NCBI GenBank assembly: GCA_022826185.1
Contig: JAJDVH010000112.1
Span: 1-32,233 of the forward strand
Reading direction: 5' to 3'
Origin: Alphaproteobacteria bacterium
GTDB taxonomy: Bacteria > Pseudomonadota > Alphaproteobacteria > Bin95
DNA length: 32,233 bases
The notes under the pieces were generated by a model. It searched no databases and had not been told where the DNA came from. It saw nothing but the letters and a program-made list of their open reading frames with translations. Position 1 is the first letter of the stretch, and every line of letters starts with the position of its first letter. The position numbers and the translations under genes were made by a program. Positions 1-32,233 of the stretch are shown here, piece by piece.

Positions 1-141
1 GCGTGCAAATCGCATCGGGGTCAGGTTACACTCTGTACGCATCGGGGCGCTCCTCTGCAACAGGACAAGTCTTTGAAGCAGAAGTACTTTCTCACATGCA
101 GAGCCCCGATGCACCTACACCCGGTGAGAAATCCGGGTTAG
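1..141 (-). mobile_element. Left end of an IS1380-type insertion sequence (continues past window start)
   Basis: This 141-bp segment matches 429-569 at a constant offset of 428 bases with few differences. On the minus strand it begins with the terminal sequence CTAACCCGGATTTCTC (rc of 126-141). It then has a leader of about 85 bp and an ATG at 42-40 that starts MRTECNLTPMRFAR, the same N-terminus as the transposase remnant in the neighbouring copy. The transposase would read leftward out of the window, so whether this copy is intact cannot be seen. The IS1380 family assignment rests on the better preserved residues of the neighbouring copy. Confidence 0.75.
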
Positions 142-569
142 TTAGTGGATAGGCGTTTAGCCTGTTTGAGAGGTTTTCGGGGCGGTCGTTTCGGCCTTTC
201 GTTTTGGGAGCGCAGGAGTATCGGTTGCGCCCGGGGCGCGTTTCAGGCGGGCCGTGAGCCGGTCGTTGCGCGCCAGGCCGAAGACACGCTGGCCCACCAG
301 CGTCGCCACATCGTGCACCACACGATCCGCAGGGCGACCGTCCGGTCCGTCGCCCCCAGAAGCAGCGCGCCGGCATCCGAGGTCATCCTCCCGCCCTCGA
401 AATCGGCCACGACATCGCGGCCTTTCAGGCGTGCAAATCGCATCCGCGTCGGGTTACACTCCGTGCGCATCGGGGCGCTCCTCTGCAACAGGACAAGTCT
501 TTGAAGCAGAAGTACTTTCTCACATGCAGAGCCCCGATGCACCTGCACGTCGTGAGAAATCCGGGCTAG
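142..569 (-). mobile_element. Internally deleted IS1380-family element (transposase pseudogene)
   Basis: The left terminus is rc of 552-569 (CTAGCCCGGATTTCTCAC). A start codon at 470 opens MRTECNPTRMRFARLKG, followed by VVADFEGGRMTSDAGALLLG, a typical N-terminus of IS1380-family DDE transposases. After ATDRTV the frame is broken. In another frame the family sequence resumes briefly (RVVHDVATLVGQRVFGLA), then the similarity stops, so the central and C-terminal catalytic region is missing. No inverted right terminus was found between 142 and 428. The next element follows directly in the same orientation, so either the right end was deleted or the second copy was inserted into it. The element is not autonomous. 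The left boundary at 569 is firm and the other boundary is uncertain. Confidence 0.75.
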
Positions 570-2845: not shown

Positions 2846-5800
2846 ATGACCGAACTCACCCTTGCCGACGGTTTCCGTTTCGAGGACCTGTATTGCCGCG
2901 ACGGTCTGCTCAGGCTCGATGCGCTGTTCCTGGAGAGCCTGGACGAGGCGCTGCGGGCCGAGCTGGAGGCGGCCCGCGCGGCGCCGGACGCGCTGGAGCC
3001 GAAAGCGGAGTCGGAGCTGGTGATCGCCCTGGCGCCGAAGCTGGAGGGCTTCCTCGCCCGCCTGTTCGGCATCGAGGCGGAAGCCGCGGCGCTGTCCGAA
3101 CGTCACACGGCGCTCGCGCCCGTCTATCGCTGCAAGCGGCTGTTCGTGCAGCGCCGCGCCGCCCGGGCGGTGAAGCCGGCGGAGGCGGCGGAACTGGACG
3201 GGGCGGCGGTCGAGGCGGCGCTCGGGGCGCATATGCCGCTGCCGGTCGAGGAGGAAGTCTTCGCAGGTGCCGTGCTCGGCTGGCTCGCCGACGAGGCGAA
3301 CGCGGGCGAGGCGCTGGAGGCGGCGGCGCGCTACGCGGCCTGGGCGCTCCACCACCCGCAAGGGCGCGCGCGCCACGGCAGGGGGGTGCTGTTCAGGCAG
3401 CCGGGGCGCGTCGATCCCATGCGGCTGATCGATACGGAGGTCCGCACGGAACAGGGCGCGCCCGCGCTGGAACTCCCGGAAGCGCGGCTGCGCCGGCGCG
3501 AGGGCTTTGCGCTCACCGACGCCGGCATGGACCTGAAGGCGGCGCTCGACCAGGCGCATTACTGCATCTTCTGCCACAACCAGGGCAAGGACAGCTGCGC
3601 GCGCGGGCTGCGCGACCGCCGCACCGGCGCCTTCGCGAGCACGGTGTTCGGCGTCGAGCTCGCCGGCTGTCCGCTGGAGGAGAAGATCTCCGAGATGCAG
3701 CTGCTCAAGACCGAGGGCTTCGCGCTCGGCGCGCTCGCCACGGTGTGCATCGACAACCCGCTCTGCGCCGCCACCGGCCACCGCATCTGCAACGACTGCA
3801 TGAAGTCCTGCATCTACCAGAAGCAGGACCCGGTCGACATTCCGCAGGTGGAGACGCGCGCGCTGAAGGACGTGCTGGAGCTGCCCTGGGGCTTCGAGAT
3901 CTACAGCCTGATGACGCGCTGGAACCCGCTGAACTTCGCCCGCCCGCTGCCTCTGCCGGAGACGGGGCGGCAGGTGCTGGTGGTCGGGCTCGGCCCGGCC
4001 GGCTTCAGCCTCGCCCACCACCTGATGAATGACGGGCACCGGGTGGTGGCGGTGGACGGGCTGAAGATCGAGCCACTGCCGGCGGCGCTCTCCGGCGTGG
4101 ACGAGACGGGCGGACGGCAGCCCTTCCGGCCCGTGCGCGACATGGCGGAAATCCGCGAGGAGCTGTCCGAAAGGGTCATGGCCGGCTTCGGCGGCGTCGC
4201 CGAATACGGCATCACGGTGCGCTGGGACAAGAACTTCCTCAAGCTGATCCGCCTGCTGCTGGAGCGGCGCGCGGCCTTCACCATGGTGGGCGGCGTGCGC
4301 TTCGGCGGCACGCTCGGGCTCGACGAGGCGTTCGCGTGGGGCTTCGACCATGTGGCGATGGCGGCCGGCGCCGGCCGGCCGACCCATGTGCCGATGCCGA
4401 ATGCGCTCGCGCCCGGCGTTCGCATGGCGTCGGACTTCCTGATGGCGCTTCAGCTCACCGGCGCGGCGCGCACGGACAGCATCGCCAACCTCCAGATACG
4501 CCTGCCGGCGGTCGTGGTCGGCGGGGGGCTGACGGCCATCGACACGGCCACCGAGTCGCTCGCCTATTACCCGGTGCAGGTCGAGAAGTTCCTGGCGCGC
4601 TGGGAGGCGCTGGACGGCAAGGTCGCGTGGACGGAGGAGGAAGCCGAGGTCGCCGAGGAGTTCCTCGCCCATGCCCGCGCGCTCAGGGCGGAGCGGGCGC
4701 GGGCGGCGGCCGGCGAGACGCCGCGCATCCGCGAAATGCTGCGCTCCTGGGGCGGCGTCACCGTCGCCTACCGCCGCCGGCTGATCGACGCGCCGAGCTA
4801 CACGCTGAACCACGAGGAAGTGGCGAAGGCGCTGGAGGAAGGCATCCGCTTCGCCGAATGCCTGTCGCCGCTCGCCGTGGAAGTGGACGCGCGGGGCCGG
4901 GCGGCGGCGCTGCGCCTCGAGCGGGTGGAGATCGACGAGCGCGGCCGGCGCCGCGCCCTCGGCGACGGCGAGACGGTTTCGCTGCCGGCCCGCTCCGTGC
5001 TCGTCGCGGCCGGCACCCAGCCCAACACGGTGCTGGCGCGGGAGAGCGCCGGCATCGCGCTCGACGGCAAGTATTTCCAGGCCGTGGACGGCGGGGGCAA
5101 CGCCGTTGTTCCCGAGCCGACGGCGAAGCCGGATGCGCCCGAAGTGCTGATGCAGCGCCGCGAGGACGGGCGGTCGGTCAGTTTCTTCGGGGACCTGCAT
5201 CCCTCCTTCGCCGGCAATGTCGTGAAGGCGATGGGCGGCGTGAAGCAGGCCTATCCTCTGGTGAGCCGCCTGCTGGCGGACCGGCCGCCGGCGACGGACG
5301 CGGACCTCGGGGCGCGCGCCGACCGCGAGCTGCGCGCGCGCGTCCACAAGGTGGTGCGGCTCACGCCCCGGATCGTCGAGGTCGTCGTCGAGGCCCCGGC
5401 GGCGGCCCGCGCCTTCCGTCCGGGCCAGTTCTACCGCCTCCAGAATTTCGAGAGCCATGCGCTGCGGCGCAACGGGACGGTGCTGGCCATGGAGGGCCTG
5501 GCGATGACCGGGGCCTGGGTGGACCATGAGCGCGGCCTGCTCTCGACGATCATCCTCGAAATGGGCGGCTCCTCCGACCTCGCGGCCTCGCTCCGGCCGG
5601 GCGAGCCGGTGGTGCTGATGGGGCCAACCGGCTCGCCGACCGAGATTCCGGGGGACGAGACGGTGCTGCTCGCCGGCGGCGGGCTCGGCAATGCGGTGCT
5701 GTTCTCCATCGGCCGCGCGCTGCGCGAGGCGGGCAGCCGGGTGCTCTATTTCGCCGGCTACAAGGAGGCGGGAGACCGCTACAAGACCGACGAGATCGAG

Positions 5801-22720: not shown

Positions 22721-23845
22721 ATGCCGGGAACCACCCTTACCGAGGCGCGCGTGAAGGCGCTCAAACCCCGCAAGTCCGTCCGCGAGGTCCGCGACGGCAA
22801 GCTCAGGGGCTTCGGCGTCCGCGTTTCGCCCTCGGGCCGCAAGCAGTTCTTCATCCACTGTCAGCATCGCGGCGAACGCATCTGGAAGATCGTCGGCGAT
22901 GCCGGAAGCATGAGCGTCATGGCCGCGCGGGCTTCGGCTGCCGAAATGATCACCGCCATCAGGCGCGGCGAGGAGGCGCCCCTCGCGCCCGGTGAGGCAT
23001 TCTTCGAAGCCGTCGCCGACACGACGTTTCGGCGTCACGAGCGGGTTTGGAAGCCCGGAACGCTCAATGTGAACCGGGGCTATCTGCGCAAACAACTGCT
23101 GCCGCATTTCGCCGGTCGTCCGATTGCCGCCATCGACCGGCAGGAGGTGCGGCACTGGTTCGCCCGCCTGCGCGTGACGCCAGTCGCGGCGGACCGGTCC
23201 ATGCCGATCCTCTCCGTCATCATGAGGGAAGCAGAAGCCATGGGCCTGCGCCCGGAGGGCTCCAATCCCTGCCGGGGCATCAAGCGCTACCGCCGCAAGG
23301 GGCGCGAGCGGTTTCTCTCCGACGAGGAAATCCGCCGCCTGTCCGCAAGGCTGACGGCGCATGAGGCCCGATGGCCGCAGCAGGTCGCGGTTATCCGGCT
23401 TCTTCTCCTGACCGGCTGCCGCAAGGGCGAGATTCTCACCCTGCAATGGGCGGACTACCGGGAAGGCCGCCTGTTCCTGCGCGATTCCAAGACGGGACCC
23501 AGGACCGTGTGGCTGTCGGCACCGGCCCGGGCCGTCCTCGACGGCCTTGAGCGGAAGGGCCGCTGGATGTTCCCCGCATCGAAAGGCGACCGGCCCCGGA
23601 GCGCGACCTGGCTGGACTGTTTCTGGCACGAGGTCCGCGCCGAGGCGGCCCTGGAGGACGTTCACCTTCATGACCTGCGCCACACCGTAGCGAGCCTGGC
23701 GCTGCGGCAGGGCGAGACCGTGTTGGCGATCGGCCGGCTTCTCGGGCACCGCAAGGCGGAGACCACGCTGAAATACACTCATACCGCCGACGCGATGATT
23801 ATGGCTGCGGCTGAGACGATCGGCGCTGCGTTAGGGGGAGAGTGA
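22721..23845 (+). CDS. Tyrosine recombinase / integrase, first of a tandem pair
   Basis: 374 residues. The N-terminal part (TLTEARVKALKPRKSVREV, then RDGKLRGFGVRVSPSG) is the arm-binding domain of P4/phage-type integrases. The catalytic domain has the full set: R234 in LTGCRKGEI, K257 in DSKTGPR, H317 and R320 in HDLRHT, H343 in LLGHRK, and the nucleophile Y352 in TLKYTHT. It is therefore expected to be active. The next gene is a paralogue starting one base before the end of this stop codon, so they are co-translated. No tRNA or clear att duplication was found beside it. A small palindrome (GCACC-TATG-GGTGC, 22612-22625) lies upstream. Confidence 0.93.
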   Translation: MPGTTLTEARVKALKPRKSVREVRDGKLRGFGVRVSPSGRKQFFIHCQHRGERIWKIVGDAGSMSVMAARASAAEMITAIRRGEEAPLAPGEAFFEAVADTTFRRHERVWKPGTLNVNRGYLRKQLLPHFAGRPIAAIDRQEVRHWFARLRVTPVAADRSMPILSVIMREAEAMGLRPEGSNPCRGIKRYRRKGRERFLSDEEIRRLSARLTAHEARWPQQVAVIRLLLLTGCRKGEILTLQWADYREGRLFLRDSKTGPRTVWLSAPARAVLDGLERKGRWMFPASKGDRPRSATWLDCFWHEVRAEAALEDVHLHDLRHTVASLALRQGETVLAIGRLLGHRKAETTLKYTHTADAMIMAAAETIGAALGGE

Positions 23846-25038
23846 TGGCGGGCAGGGAGCGGACGAAACTCACCGATGCCGCCGTTGCCCGGCTTCGGCC
23901 CCGCGAGCGGGAATACACGGTCTGGGACACGCGCGCGGCCGGTCTCGGCGTCAGGGTTCGGCCCTCCGGCGGGCGTAGCTATGTGCTGCTTCAGGATATG
24001 GGCGGGCGCACGAAGCGCGTCTCGCTCGGCCCGGTCGGGGTGAAGAGCCTGGAAGAGGTTCGCCGGGAATGCCATGCCCGTCGGGCAAACCCCGAGCCCG
24101 AGGCGGAAACCGCGCGGGCGCGGCCGGTCCCGCTGTTCCGGGACTTCGTCGCCGGGGAGTGGAAGGAGGCGCATTTCGACGGCTACAGGGCTTCGACGAA
24201 GAAGAACGTCCGCTACCAGCTGTCCGGACAGCTTCTGCCGGTCTTCGGGGCGAAGCCGCTCGACCGCATCGGGGAGGCCGCTATCCGGCGCTGGTTCGAG
24301 CGCTGCAGCCGTACCGCGCCGGGCAACGCCAACCATCATCTCACCTGCCTTCGCCAGATTCTCAACTTCGCCACCGCCTGCGGCCACATCGAAGGCAATC
24401 CCGCGCAGCGCATCGCCCTGAACCGCCGGCCCGCATTGACGCGGTTTCTGTCCCGCGAGGAAATCGACCGGCTGCACGGCGTCCTGGATGCACAGACCCG
24501 GAAAGGCAGCCGGGAGCAGGCCGACATCATCCGCCTTCTGCTTCTCACCGGCTGCCGCAAGGGAGAGATCATGGGCTTGCGCTGGTCAGAGGTCCGCGAC
24601 GGCATGCTGGCGCTTGCGGACAGCAAGACGGGGCCGAGAACGGTCCCGCTCAACATACAGGCGCGCGCCATTCTCGACCGGCAGCCGCGCGGGGAGAGCC
24701 CGTTCGTGTTTCCCTCGCCGCTCGACCCCGCCCACCCGCGCGGACCCGACCTGCCGTTCTGGTATCGTGTGCGCCGGGAAGCTGGGATAGAAGACGTCCG
24801 CCTCCATGACCTGCGTCACACCGTGGCCAGCCATGCGGTGATGAACGGCGTGCCGTTACCGGTCGTCGCCCGCATGCTTGGGCATTCCAATGTGCAGATG
24901 ACGCTGCGCTACGCCCATCTGGCAGACCGCGATATCGAAGCCGCTGCCGAACGGGTAGGACAGGCCATGGTGCGGGCCATGGGACCGGGCGCTCAGTTGC
25001 ATCCCCTGGATGCATCGAGCGACGGGTCGACCGGGTGA
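23845..25038 (+). CDS. Tyrosine recombinase / integrase, second of a tandem pair
   Basis: 397 residues from the ATG that overlaps the first integrase stop as TGATG; GGGGGAG lies four bases upstream and a GTG one codon earlier is the alternative. It has the same layout as its neighbour: arm-binding domain (KLTDAAVARLRPREREYTV), core-binding domain, and catalytic residues R238 (LTGCRKGEI), K261, H321 and R324 (HDLRHT), H347 (MLGHSN), Y356 (TLRYAHL). The catalytic blocks are nearly the same as in the first protein, but the N-terminal halves differ, so they are old paralogues rather than a recent duplication. The pair may act as a heteromeric recombinase. Confidence 0.93.
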   Translation: MAGRERTKLTDAAVARLRPREREYTVWDTRAAGLGVRVRPSGGRSYVLLQDMGGRTKRVSLGPVGVKSLEEVRRECHARRANPEPEAETARARPVPLFRDFVAGEWKEAHFDGYRASTKKNVRYQLSGQLLPVFGAKPLDRIGEAAIRRWFERCSRTAPGNANHHLTCLRQILNFATACGHIEGNPAQRIALNRRPALTRFLSREEIDRLHGVLDAQTRKGSREQADIIRLLLLTGCRKGEIMGLRWSEVRDGMLALADSKTGPRTVPLNIQARAILDRQPRGESPFVFPSPLDPAHPRGPDLPFWYRVRREAGIEDVRLHDLRHTVASHAVMNGVPLPVVARMLGHSNVQMTLRYAHLADRDIEAAAERVGQAMVRAMGPGAQLHPLDASSDGSTG

Positions 25039-25624: not shown

Positions 25625-25805
25625 CTAACCCGGATTTCTCGTCCGTTTCGCTGCGTCGGGCCTCTACATGCGAGAAAGTTCGTTTTCAACAACGACTTGC
25701 CCGGTTGCGGGGGAACACACCGATGCCGACGTATCGTAACCCGGTTTCGATGCGATTTGCACGACTGAAGGGGCCGCCGATCGATCGGGAGTTCGGCTTG
25801 TGCTT
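25625..25805 (+). mobile_element. IS1380-type left-end remnant, diverged from the copy at 1-569
   Basis: It starts with CTAACCCGGATTTCTC (25625-25640), the same terminal sequence as at 126-141 and 554-569 on the other strand. The following leader aligns with those copies (TGCGAGAAAGT against TGTGAGAAAGT), and the translated start MPTYRNPVSMRFARLKG matches MRTECNPTRMRFARLKG. Similarity ends soon after DREFG, so only the first few dozen transposase codons remain. It is oriented opposite to the copies at the window start. From about 25806 to 25950 no gene is seen. Confidence 0.72.
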
Positions 25806-28427: not shown

Positions 28428-29933
28428 CTAGTTCTTCCGTTGCGTGACCATCAGATAGGTGCCGAAGCCGCCCGCGACCGCGCCGTCGTCGAACTTGCCG
28501 GTGAAGGTCCCGGCGGCCCCTGTCGGATACGCCCCGTCCGCCCCGTCGCCGTAAAGCCGGCCCGAGAAGCGCCCGTGATTGTCCTGGCCCTCGTCCCTGT
28601 AGCCGTCCGTTCCCTTGTAGGTCGAGTCCCAGGTCGCCCCGTGCGTCCGGCCCGAGAAGCCGCCGCTGCTCGCGATGGAGGTCGAGCCGAAGGACAGGCT
28701 CCAGCCGAGATCGCGCCCGCCGCCCCGGAAACCGCTGAGCCCGCCATGGATCGTCTGCGAGGAGCCGAAATCCGCATGCAGCGTCACCTTCGCCGTGAAC
28801 ACCCCGGCGCTGGCGCTGCCGTCGGCGCCCTCCTTCACATACTGCCCGGCGGCCGGGCCTTCATAGGTCGCCCGCCCCGAAAGCGCACGCGGATCGCCGG
28901 CGAAGGGCTGCGAGCCGCCCGCGAAGGTCGTCATCTCGTAAGCGCCATCGTCCAGCGGGTCCGGGCCGCGCAGCCAGAACCCGAACCAGCGGTAGTCCGT
29001 GTCCGGAACGCTCACCTGCGGCTTGCGCGAACCGCCGCCCGCTCCCGTATAGGACTTCGGCGTGAAGACCCAGCCGGCCATCGCCGTGATGCCCTTCCGG
29101 GGATCGCCGGAGTCGTTGAGCGAGCAGGTCTCGGCAACGCAGCTGTAGATGCCGTAGGCGCCGTCGAACCGCCCGTCTATCTCATGGCCCCGGTCGAAGT
29201 CCCTGTCCTCGCCGCTCACGCCCCGGTCCACCGGGTTCACCGAGTCCGTGTCGCCCTCGCGCGTGTCGCCCGGCAGGCGGGAGACATGGGTCACAAGGCG
29301 CTCTCTCAGATGGGCCGCCGTGATGCCCAGGGCGTCGTTCTGCTGGTCCGCATCGGTATCCGTATCCAGGGGCCAGACTTCGGTGAAGTCCAGCGCGCGC
29401 GGCGGCTGGATATCCGTATAGACCCAGGCCGTCGTCGGTCTCGCGGCACCCGTGCGGGTCAGGCTCTGGCCGGAATAGCGGATGGTCGTCGGCGCAACCG
29501 GGGCCGAGCCCGCCGCGCGCCACGACGCATCGAGCCATATATCCGCCTTGCTGCCGTCGGGGCGGCTGATCGTCAGCGTTCCGGGCGCGCCGGTCCCGAC
29601 CGTCTCGATAGCGTGTCGGAGCGCCGCCTCGCGCGTCGGGGTTGCGTCCTCCGACACCGCATCGCCCGTGCCGCTGACAAGGCTGTCTGTCTGGCCGACG
29701 GGGTTGCCGGAGGTGTCGCTCGACTGCCCGGCGGGGCTGTCGCCTGTCCGAGTGCCGGTGTTGCCGGGCGTCTGCGGGTTGCCGCCGCCACCCTGGCCGA
29801 CGGCGCTGCCGCTCGGCTGCCCGCCGGTGTTGCTGGCCGTCTTGGGACCGCCGCTTCCGCCCCCGCAGGCCGAAAGCGCCAGCGCCGCGCAAAACATGAG
29901 CGCCGTCGTCGATAGAAGAGAAAACCGTATCAT
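28428..29933 (-). CDS. Gly-rich surface lipoprotein with TbpB-like C-terminal beta-barrel
   Basis: 501 residues. Signal peptide with lipobox ALALSACGGGSGG (C23), then a flexible Gly/Ser/Thr/Gln linker to about residue 95. A middle region has several Cys and acidic repeats (DTDTDADQQND). The last 125 or so residues look like the eight-stranded barrel of TbpB, NHBA and related Slam-dependent lipoproteins: SGGFSGRTHGATWDS, GRFSGRLYGDGADGAY, then AGTFTGKFDDGAVAGGFG. The ending GTFTGKF-(D)DG-VAGGFG is very characteristic. The role is probably host or nutrient binding at the outer membrane, with ligand unknown. AAGGAG precedes the ATG by about 11 nt. It lies 95 nt upstream of the S8 protease and below two strong hairpins. 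Confidence 0.82.
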   Translation of the reverse strand: MIRFSLLSTTALMFCAALALSACGGGSGGPKTASNTGGQPSGSAVGQGGGGNPQTPGNTGTRTGDSPAGQSSDTSGNPVGQTDSLVSGTGDAVSEDATPTREAALRHAIETVGTGAPGTLTISRPDGSKADIWLDASWRAAGSAPVAPTTIRYSGQSLTRTGAARPTTAWVYTDIQPPRALDFTEVWPLDTDTDADQQNDALGITAAHLRERLVTHVSRLPGDTREGDTDSVNPVDRGVSGEDRDFDRGHEIDGRFDGAYGIYSCVAETCSLNDSGDPRKGITAMAGWVFTPKSYTGAGGGSRKPQVSVPDTDYRWFGFWLRGPDPLDDGAYEMTTFAGGSQPFAGDPRALSGRATYEGPAAGQYVKEGADGSASAGVFTAKVTLHADFGSSQTIHGGLSGFRGGGRDLGWSLSFGSTSIASSGGFSGRTHGATWDSTYKGTDGYRDEGQDNHGRFSGRLYGDGADGAYPTGAAGTFTGKFDDGAVAGGFGTYLMVTQRKN

Positions 29934-30093: not shown

Positions 30094-31926
30094 CTACTGT
30101 TTCGTTGCGCCAAACACGCCCACAGCTTGCACCTGGACAGCCGTTAAGTCGCCTAGTTGCGTGATATCATACACGCCTCCAGCCTCCGCCGCATTGGCGC
30201 CGAAAAACGCACCCTCAACCGACGATCCGGCTGCGGTAATAACCGCTGTGTCCGTTGAATGCACGTTTCCGACAAAGTAACCGGACTGGGCTCCGGAAAA
30301 GCTGACGTTAGCGGCAAAAGCAAATGATTGTTTCGGCGTGTCTACCCCTCCCGTCACACCGGGGAATGTATTCCCGACGGTGCTTGTGAGCGTAACGTCA
30401 ATGCTTGCGAGGCTTAAATCCCCCCATACCATTGTGACCGTTCCCGAATCATCGGCGAAGTCACCCCAACCGGTACTATCTGCGGGATTTGTGCGGTATT
30501 TCCCCACATAGGCCCCGTTCCATGTCGCCGTGCCGGTGTTTCCCAAGCCCTGGATGTCGGCAGACGACGTACGTGTGCCGCGCAGATAGTAGTAGTCAAC
30601 GCTTTCGAGACTCGCCGTGAAATCGCCAGCATTACCGGAAGCGTCGAAATCGCCCGGCTTCTCGGACCATGCCCCGAAAGACAAATGGCTATAGGCGCCT
30701 GGCGGCGTCACGGGATCGGGGTCCGGATCGGGGTCCGTCACGGGATCGGGGTCCGAAGCGGTTACATCGTCGGCCTGGAAGCAGGAAAAGTCCGTTACAT
30801 CCTTGCAACCGCCGAACCAGCCCGCGCCGCGAATGTCGGAGACCCTGACAGGATCATTGTTGTTGTCCGTAAGGGTGGCAGAATCCTTTCGGTATTCGAA
30901 CTCATACACACCGGCAAGGGCTTCGGCGTTTGTATCGAATACAGCACCGGCGATCTTGTAATATGTATCATCATCGCCCGGCTTGGCGTTGACCCTGTCG
31001 TTATTGAAAGTCGTTTTCGGGTCGATAAGGTCGGCTGTGGGCGCCCATTCATCGCCGGCCGTATCGCTGCCGTCGGGAAGCGTTTTGGCGTCAGTAGTGC
31101 TGCTTGTGAGCGTTACCGTCACAGCGTTTTCGTTGGTAGTGAAATCCACCTCAATAGAAGCGGTTCCGCTATCATTCGCTTGCGCGCCCCAGACTCCGTT
31201 TTCATCGGCCAGTTGATAAACGCCTTCGTATTCTCCCTCCCAAGTGGCAGTTCCGCTAGGAAGGGAGCTTATGCTCGCGATAACTTCTCCCGTAACCGCA
31301 TAGTTAGCGTAAAAGCCCTCCTCGGTTAATGTTCCGACACCGAAACGCCGCTGGTCGTTAGCCGGGGCAGGTTGGTCACTCCTCCATACGCCCCAGGATG
31401 CAACGGGGCCGTTTTGGGAGGTGTAGCTGCCTGTTTTCGGAGCAGTCGGCGGTGTTTGCGGCGGTGCCGGCGGGCTTTTTGCCGAGGGCTGGTCGAAAGC
31501 CTCTAGGAGGCGGTAATACAGATTTGACAGCGCCTGTTGTTCAACGGGATCAAGACGGTAGAAGTCATGATCTGGAACGCGATTGTTGACCGATTGAGCC
31601 GACTTTGACAGTAGTGCCAGAATGTCGGCGAAAAACTGCAAGTCTGCGGCAGTTGTGGCTGCGTTAAGCTGTTTTTCCAGGGTGTGGCAGTAGCTTTCAG
31701 TCTCTCCGCAAACGGACATCAGGGCCGCGCCGCCTGCGCCGGTGCCGCCTGTGCCGGTGCCGCCTGTGCCGGTCCCGCCCCCTGGGGATTGAGGGGTTTG
31801 GGAAGGGGGTATCTCGTTGCTGGCGGCCGGTGTTCCGCTGCTACCGCCGCCACCGCAGCCGGTGAGCGCCAGCATAGCAATGAGCGGAAGGGCCATTGAG
31901 GTCTTCAGGACTGTGGCGATGTTCAC
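30094..31926 (-). CDS. Gly-rich surface lipoprotein with two repeated TbpB-like domains
   Basis: 610 residues. Signal peptide with lipobox LALTGCGGGGSS (C24), a Gly-Thr repeat linker (about 50-67), and a helical segment (about 80-145). Then come two copies of one beta-rich domain. Copy one at about 224-345 has SGTATWEGEYEGVY, DSGTASIEVDF and VTVTLTSST. Copy two at about 464-590 has TGTATWNGAYVGKY, DSGTVTMVWGDL and IDVTLTSTV. A Asp-Pro-rich hinge (390-409) separates them. The TATW-x-G-x-Y-x-G-x-Y strand pair resembles barrel hairpins of TbpB-like lipoproteins. The start is GTG at 31926 with GGGAGGAA just upstream. Base composition is clearly lower in GC than its neighbours, suggesting transfer. 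Ligand unknown. Confidence 0.8.
   Translation of the reverse strand: MNIATVLKTSMALPLIAMLALTGCGGGGSSGTPAASNEIPPSQTPQSPGGGTGTGGTGTGGTGAGGAALMSVCGETESYCHTLEKQLNAATTAADLQFFADILALLSKSAQSVNNRVPDHDFYRLDPVEQQALSNLYYRLLEAFDQPSAKSPPAPPQTPPTAPKTGSYTSQNGPVASWGVWRSDQPAPANDQRRFGVGTLTEEGFYANYAVTGEVIASISSLPSGTATWEGEYEGVYQLADENGVWGAQANDSGTASIEVDFTTNENAVTVTLTSSTTDAKTLPDGSDTAGDEWAPTADLIDPKTTFNNDRVNAKPGDDDTYYKIAGAVFDTNAEALAGVYEFEYRKDSATLTDNNNDPVRVSDIRGAGWFGGCKDVTDFSCFQADDVTASDPDPVTDPDPDPDPVTPPGAYSHLSFGAWSEKPGDFDASGNAGDFTASLESVDYYYLRGTRTSSADIQGLGNTGTATWNGAYVGKYRTNPADSTGWGDFADDSGTVTMVWGDLSLASIDVTLTSTVGNTFPGVTGGVDTPKQSFAFAANVSFSGAQSGYFVGNVHSTDTAVITAAGSSVEGAFFGANAAEAGGVYDITQLGDLTAVQVQAVGVFGATKQ
30707..30755 (-). repeat. 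Direct repeat encoding the Asp-Pro hinge of the lipoprotein
   Basis: A 19-bp unit (GTCACGGGATCGGGGTCCG) occurs at 30707-30725 and 30737-30755, a 30-bp period, which keeps the frame. It encodes the DPDPVT repeats between the two beta domains. Length variation would lengthen or shorten the hinge without disrupting the protein. Confidence 0.8.
31729..31773 (-). repeat. Three 15-bp in-frame repeats in the N-terminal linker of the lipoprotein
   Basis: GCCGCCTGTGCCGGT occurs at 31744-31758 and 31759-31773, preceded by a copy with one change at 31729-31743. It encodes the GTGTG-type linker directly after the lipidation site. The unit is a multiple of three, so copy-number change alters tether length only. 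Confidence 0.8.
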
Positions 31927-32157
31927 GGGGATTCCTCCCTTTCGAGACAGACAGGACCGGGAATTGTCGATGCGCCCCGTCGAGAACCGCGAACCATTGC
32001 CCTGGTTCGGCGCGGCGGCGGAAGCAATCGCAACGAGCGGAATCCCGGCAGCTTGCGGCGGACGCGCGGAGGTGCCCTCTGCGCCCGAAATCCGGCGGCG
32101 ACGAGGTATCGTATCGACAGGAAATCCGCCCTTGGCGGGCGGCGGAAACTCAGAAGA
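31927..32157 (-). other. Upstream region of the lipoprotein gene
   Basis: No gene is supported here. The lipoprotein's own frame stays free of stop codons from its GTG start back to the window edge, but contains no ATG, GTG or TTG. A ribosome site (GGGAGGAA) and a signal peptide mark the GTG as the true start. No convincing promoter was recognised. The heptamer array begins at the far end. Confidence 0.5.
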
Positions 32158-32233
32158 TCGGCGCTCGGCGCTCGGCGCTCGGCGCTCGGCGCTCGGCGCT
32201 CGGCGCTCGGCGCTCGGCGCTCGGCGCTCGGCG
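32158..32233. repeat. Perfect heptanucleotide tandem repeat (TCGGCGC), about 11 copies, open at window end
   Basis: 76 bases follow a strict 7-base period with no mismatch, giving nearly 11 copies that continue past the window. The array starts about 230 bp upstream of the lipoprotein start codon. Seven is not a multiple of three, so copy-number change within a coding region would shift frame. Between genes it would change spacing. It may also mark the end of an assembly contig. Confidence 0.95.

Follow-up and report, generated by a model that had tools for sequence, protein, structure and literature searches.

The window analyzed here is the entire 32,233-bp contig C146 of an alphaproteobacterial genome (G000; 4.48 Mb in 279 contigs). 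Near its right end the minus strand carries a gene for a surface lipoprotein (positions 30094 to 31926; 610 amino acids) with a GTG start, a lipobox (LTGC), and a TbpB-type barrel. A Slam gene (PF04575; E value, 1.1e-23) lies at positions 4080 to 5609 of a second contig, C4 (10,113 bp; coordinates on it are prefixed L009), and is a neighbor of the lipoprotein gene provided that the two contigs join (see below). The locus thus resembles those of TbpB-type Slam-dependent surface lipoproteins in its TbpB_B_D domain (PF01298; E value, 2.6e-9; 38.1 bits versus a cut-off of 26), its lipobox, and the Slam gene on the adjoining contig, but differs from them in that the protein scored only 31 bits against the NCBIfam slam_lipo model, for which the cut-off is 80. 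A second putative lipoprotein (28428 to 29933, minus strand; 501 amino acids, lipobox LSAC, no Pfam match) and a subtilase-family protease (PF00082; 25951 to 28398, minus strand) are possibly encoded in the same operon. C4 also encodes a porin. Two integrase genes lie within window positions 22721 to 25038, and the second (24663 to 24981) is 83% identical to an inverted integrase fragment on C4 (L009:429-747). Because integrase sequences flank it on both sides, the lipoprotein cluster appears island-like. A repeat of about 142 bp occurs at window positions 1 to 142 and 429 to 570 (93% identical), with an inverted copy at 25625 to 25777 (74%).

The window ends in a heptamer array (32158 to 32233) whose unit is TCGGCGC on the forward strand, or GCGCCGA on the strand of the lipoprotein gene, and which runs on at L009:1-76. 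Within the window the array spans 76 bp with a period of 7, 10.9 copies, and 100% matches, the top score among the 15 tandem rows of the window. It is separated from the GTG start at 31926 by 231 bp, and the lipoprotein frame is free of stops across the array up to the window edge (712 amino acids open), although the array itself supplies no start codon. These measurements bear out the first-pass annotation, which had described at these positions a mismatch-free heptamer array about 230 bp from the start codon, with the lipoprotein frame open through it but not starting there. The locus therefore has the anatomy of a contingency locus, a perfect short-unit array beside a surface-protein gene. 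The array is beyond chance. A background sample of 848,745 bp, chosen regardless of arrays (40 plus 6 G000 contigs and 20 G007 contigs, at most 20 kb each, with N removed), contained seven perfect arrays (period 5 to 12, at least 21 bp, and at least 2.9 copies), none of period 7; one of the seven (L126) is itself linked to the motif described below. A first-order Markov simulation of the same length yielded no such arrays. Four contigs whose sequence consists of N (L097, L101, L123, and L137) were dropped from these counts and from the count of shared contig ends below.

C146 and C4 are the only G000 contigs with at least three TCGGCGC units in a row, and the first 76 bp of C4 are TCGGCGC array. 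C4, as the sole other such contig, was taken as the other side of the array, and we infer that the two contigs adjoin across it. The edges of the array (left phase T, right ...GGCGCT) require a perfect array between them to be 7m+1 bp long. Since 76 is not of that form, the 76 bp and 10.9 units reflect where the assembly was cut, and the true array at the window locus is probably at least 78 bp long. The earlier description of nearly 11 units is therefore sound as to perfect repeats but not as to their number. The possibility that both contig ends represent the shortest of several alleles was ruled out on the same grounds. L126, an unrelated 8-bp array in G000, likewise ends at exactly 76 bp. 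Contig ends common to two G000 contigs were 141 bp long in five pairs among those compared and 139 bp in a sixth.

The first-pass annotation had also raised the concern that the array might be an artefact of assembly at a contig end. The window and C4 each end after 76 bp of array, several other arrays sit at contig ends, and the length is indeed artefactual. However, homologous arrays have both flanks inside contigs of G000 and of other assemblies (L076, L077, L073, L197, and L198, the last four in other assemblies). This contradicts an artefact as the source of the array, an explanation that we regard as highly improbable and that is valid for the unit count only. In the G003 version of the window locus, the array extends for 94 bp up to the contig end on one side and for 27 bp on another contig. 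On the latter contig (G003:C220), which carries the promoter side of this locus, the 27-bp array is followed by 142 bp (L022:1-142) unlike the lipoprotein leader. A search for the origin of these 142 bp gave a full-length match to itself only, with short matches of 32 to 52 bp elsewhere, and they may be either a true rearrangement or an assembler chimera. The 94- and 27-bp arrays were not read as an allele.

On C4, just outside the window, a promoter-like motif on the minus strand, TTGACA-N20-TATAAT (L009:79-110), points at the lipoprotein gene and stops 2 bp short of the array; the contig end reads ...GGCG-TTGACA-N20-TATAAT-TA-(AGCGCCG)n on the lipoprotein's strand. No sigma-70-like pair with a spacing of 16 to 18 was found between the array and the gene or on L009:1-700, and this motif is therefore the sole promoter candidate seen in the regions searched. 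The spacer of the usual sigma-70 promoter is 16 to 18 bp. Because 20 bp is longer, promoter activity is considered putative only. MerR-type regulation was considered for the 20-bp spacing, with only the spacers looked at. The leader from the array to the start codon (31927 to 32157, minus strand; 231 nt) is 98% identical in G003 and 81 to 83% identical in two related loci. It contains a terminator-like hairpin (32126 to 32142, minus strand) 15 nt past the array (1 found versus 0.1 expected), present also in L023, L070, and L076, and a GGGAGG sequence (31934 to 31939, minus strand), common to the related genes, that is likely the ribosome-binding site. Five loci had no match in Rfam at gathering thresholds. 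The array RNA is predicted to fold into a long hairpin with GCGC and CG pairs and single-base bulges, not stronger than many shuffles, and the z-scores for folding of the array plus leader (-1.4 to -2.3 in four array-bearing sequences) were not counted as evidence.

Control through promoter spacing, as previously proposed for this array, does not fit this arrangement because the whole promoter-like motif lies upstream of the array. Most likely, the leader of the lipoprotein mRNA begins with the array, which is not a promoter spacer. The arrangement would then be of the hmwA type, with an array between a promoter and a start codon; the promoter-like motif adjoins the array on the correct strand, and its promoter activity is putative. 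The earlier suggestion that the array switches the frame of a gene to its right is likewise not supported. The intact genes that lie there, abiEi and abiEii of an AbiEi/AbiEii-type toxin-antitoxin system (L009:795-2281), share the lipoprotein's strand and lie past the promoter-like motif, between it and the Slam gene.

A search with the lipoprotein gave nine matches in four of the eight genomes of the genus, and a PF01298 search of the family gave 34 matches in 8 of 14 genomes. Twenty-nine stretches totaling 324,749 bp (24 from matching contigs, the window, L009, and three G003 contigs) contained 13 perfect arrays (at least 3 copies, at least 21 bp, and period 2 to 30), 11 of them with a period of 7. 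An upstream heptamer array was present in seven of eight aligned lipoproteins, i.e., in six of the seven relatives of the window gene. The units were GCGCCGA for the window gene and its G003 ortholog, GCGCCGT for L076, L077, and L070, and GCGCCTC for L071 and L073. The aligned lipoprotein locus that has no array, L075, has what reads as a transposase-like coding fragment before the gene. Several loci with PF01298 scores over the cut-off had no array (L072, L074, L075, L079, and L083), and the array is thus a trait of a subset rather than of all TbpB-like genes. The PF01298 gene of G003:C467 starts at the contig start, its upstream side falling outside the contig. The related genes have leader DNA that is 81 to 83% identical and a signal peptide in common; their whole proteins are 21 to 26% identical. 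Leaders in the lipoprotein class are 231 to 345 nt long, each with its own start site. Viral contigs were tried as a source of relatives and gave 30 pattern matches, with no relatives by tblastn.

Unit number differed between closed orthologs at two related loci in different species. The arrays of G000:C134 (60 bp) and G003:C255 (32 bp) are four units apart, and those of G003:C176 (94 bp) and G005:C39 (118 bp) are three units apart, with flanks 80 to 93% identical in both pairs. The arrays of G003:C476 and G005:C148 are 39 bp each, the latter limited by a contig end. The original interpretation of a slippage-type array before a surface lipoprotein is therefore upheld by the PF01298 domain, the LTGC lipobox, the occurrence of the array at related genes, and the differences in unit number between orthologs.

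The association of arrays with the promoter-like motif was specific to its spacing. In G000, TTGACA-N15..22-TANAAT had 46 matches, 44 with N15, mostly from one dispersed element, and two with N20, both of which adjoin arrays. Across the eight genomes of the genus, the strict TTGACA-N20-TANAAT motif had 11 matches, 10 with an array within 3 bp, the lone match without one being G001:C286. Because some of the 10 are orthologs, they represent about seven independent loci. A relaxed motif (TTGAC-N-TANAAT, hexamer spacings of 16 to 23) gave 47 matches in the same genomes, each of which was inspected. No array adjoined any of the 23 matches with spacings of 16 to 19, 21, or 22. Of the 10 N20 matches in which TTGAC is followed by a base other than A, one adjoined an array (G007:C189, where 20 bp of 8-mer repeats precede a lipoprotein gene), as did 1 of 3 N23 matches (G007:C134, before a secreted protein); one further N23 overlap had no array. 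The strict motif is missing at L076, where there is one base too many. Reversed-pattern controls for the strict N20 motif had no matches in the eight genomes, and a search outside the genus (order, 14 genomes) yielded a single match, which belongs to a different genus (G009) and has no array. Behind the motif, the repeat units measure 7 or 8 bp and are mostly locus specific (GCGCCGA, GCGCCGT, GCGCCTC, CAGCCGGT, AGCCGCCG, GGCCCAGC, and others). Palindromic cores gave no signal (9 of 10 units versus a shuffled mean of 8.0; P = 0.36).

The dispersed N15 element of G000 (TTGACA-N15-TAGAAT) is present as about 40 near-identical copies in 44 places (for example, L168, L172, and L177), often near contig ends. 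A GC-rich hairpin and a T-containing tail follow its motif, and it looks like a multicopy short transcript; three copies tested had no Rfam match. An 8-bp array, CCGGCGAC, is present in 7.6 copies at a contig start (L102:1-61; G000:C8) without the strict N20 motif.

Two kinds of genes lie behind the arrays: lipoproteins with their own start (kind A), which the G007:C189 locus resembles, and secreted proteins with the array near the signal peptide (kind B). Kind B includes L024 (Calx-beta, SWM, and fn3) and L078 (Calx-beta and LapA), with domains assigned by Pfam, and L235, which reads as a fibronectin-type protein. Also of this kind are L197, of which L198 is the ortholog, L203, and L204, the stretches of which that were scanned had no Pfam match in L197, L203, and L204. 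An ATG in the signal-peptide frame follows the array in L197, L198, L235, and L078, whereas L024, L203, and L204 as assembled have no in-frame start codon between the array and the signal peptide. The strict motif is absent from L024, which has TATAAT without TTGACA, and from L078, which has TTGACA without TANAAT. In G000:C32 and G005:C148 the contig ends behind the array, leaving the downstream gene outside the contig.

The anatomy of the locus, its recurrence, the spacing specificity, and the whole-unit differences between orthologs are consistent with a simple-sequence contingency element in the mRNA 5' leader of a surface lipoprotein, one of a genus-wide set, whose unit number would alter expression. 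We consider this explanation fairly probable. It is preferred because the anatomy resembles that of hmw1A, in which heptamers lie behind the functional P2 promoter. If the motif is, as we infer, an active promoter, transcription would start just past TATAAT on C4, i.e., within the first repeat units, and the transcript would cross the array and the terminator-like hairpin and reach the GGGAGG/GTG start some 200 bases later. Within one population, slippage during replication would alter the number of 7-bp units, and unit number may in turn determine the production or retention of full-length mRNA. The mechanism of this change, like its direction, is presumptive; candidates are a GC-rich leader structure that becomes longer, premature termination, and a delay in promoter escape. 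Cells of a single population would thereby differ in their amount of lipoprotein. The same TTGACA-N20-TANAAT geometry, with different 7- or 8-bp units, would serve the set of loci before lipoproteins and secreted proteins. A broader version of this proposal is possible but doubtful. It holds that the genus has a reusable module in which a 20-bp-spaced promoter is followed by a locus-specific 7- or 8-bp array as the initially transcribed region, deployed across a bank of surface-protein genes, with array length rather than sequence being what counts.

An alternative is that translation begins upstream of the array and that unit number decides whether it joins the downstream frame. Units of 7 and 8 bp do shift the frame, and at the window locus the frame of an ATG on C4 stays open into the array. 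L024, L203, and L204, with no in-frame start after the array, also fit such a switch. It is plausible at L024, where an SD-like GGGAGG and an ATG precede the array and a stop directly follows it as assembled. However, the lipoprotein class has a separate start with a GGGAGG-like site and a signal peptide 231 to 345 nt past the array, and reading through would bury that signal peptide. Furthermore, the equivalent upstream frame in L076 stops at TAA, and the lengths of related leaders (231, 253, 247, and 237 nt) differ by non-multiples of three. Frame switching is therefore unlikely at the lipoprotein class, and as a general explanation it has little probability. The units might instead be DNA or RNA binding sites for a regulator acting just behind the promoter, with unit number titrating the regulator. 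The array does adjoin the -10-like box, but the units differ between loci, which makes a single sequence-specific regulator unlikely, and we give this explanation only a small chance. It is similarly improbable that the arrays are passive satellites at sites that tolerate slippage, with no effect on expression. Slippage can produce GC-rich arrays, but these arrays go together with a single motif geometry and with exported-protein genes, and perfect arrays were rare elsewhere in the background sample, where one was itself motif linked.

The leader-array explanation has precedents. The (ATCTTTC)n arrays of Haemophilus influenzae hmw1A and hmw2A have 9 to 28 units among isolates (PMC8262952, PMC2424069). 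In hmw1A, as described in PMC8262952, P2 and P1 flank the heptamers, P2 alone is functional, and more units result in less mRNA. The arrays described here are similar to those in having a period of 7, a length of tens of base pairs, a position before a surface adhesin or surface protein and downstream of a functional or putative promoter, and paralogous loci (PMC8262952, PMC2424069). They differ in their locus-specific units, some of 8 bp, the fixed N20 motif adjoining them, the other gene families involved, and their occurrence in alphaproteobacteria. Neither homology to hmwA nor the ATCTTTC unit was found. Because the unit (GCGCCGA) and the protein (a TbpB_B_D lipoprotein) are different, the locus would work like hmwA without being a member of that family. 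PMC4679880 recounts that an AGAT array governs expression of Moraxella catarrhalis uspA2 through its copy number. That array, too, belongs to the 5' untranslated region of a surface-protein transcript, but its period is 4 and a single gene is involved. The TAACTGA heptamers of Beggiatoaceae are alike in being intergenic heptamer repeats ahead of genes (PMC4679880). Neither arrays of this sort in sponge symbionts nor the N20 motif turned up in the literature searched. The first-pass annotation was thus likely right in kind, a surface-protein contingency locus, and wrong in detail, the array appearing to be a leader array behind a promoter-like motif.

The sister genomes in the genus include G007 (JAPORR01, isolate CAR1_bin_3) and G003 (JAJEAZ01, isolate jk18x7bins.95). 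According to PMC9531527, bins named jk18x7bins originate in work on Ircinia sponges that used Megahit, and kinship suggests that the window's genome also belongs to a sponge symbiont. Phase variation is said in PMC11475388 to be typical of small-genome pathogens. The present results describe a set of phase-variation-type loci with one promoter-like geometry in alphaproteobacteria that are uncultured and include at least one from Ircinia sponge metagenomes. Because the arrays cut short-read assemblies, such locus banks are probably undercounted. The leader arrays provide a natural experiment in which the geometry is constant and many different units are found, and the set suggests that symbionts vary their surface inside the host. 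If the module reading were true, the module would be a promoter-escape or leader-length rheostat and a principal means by which symbionts with multi-megabase genomes vary their surface.
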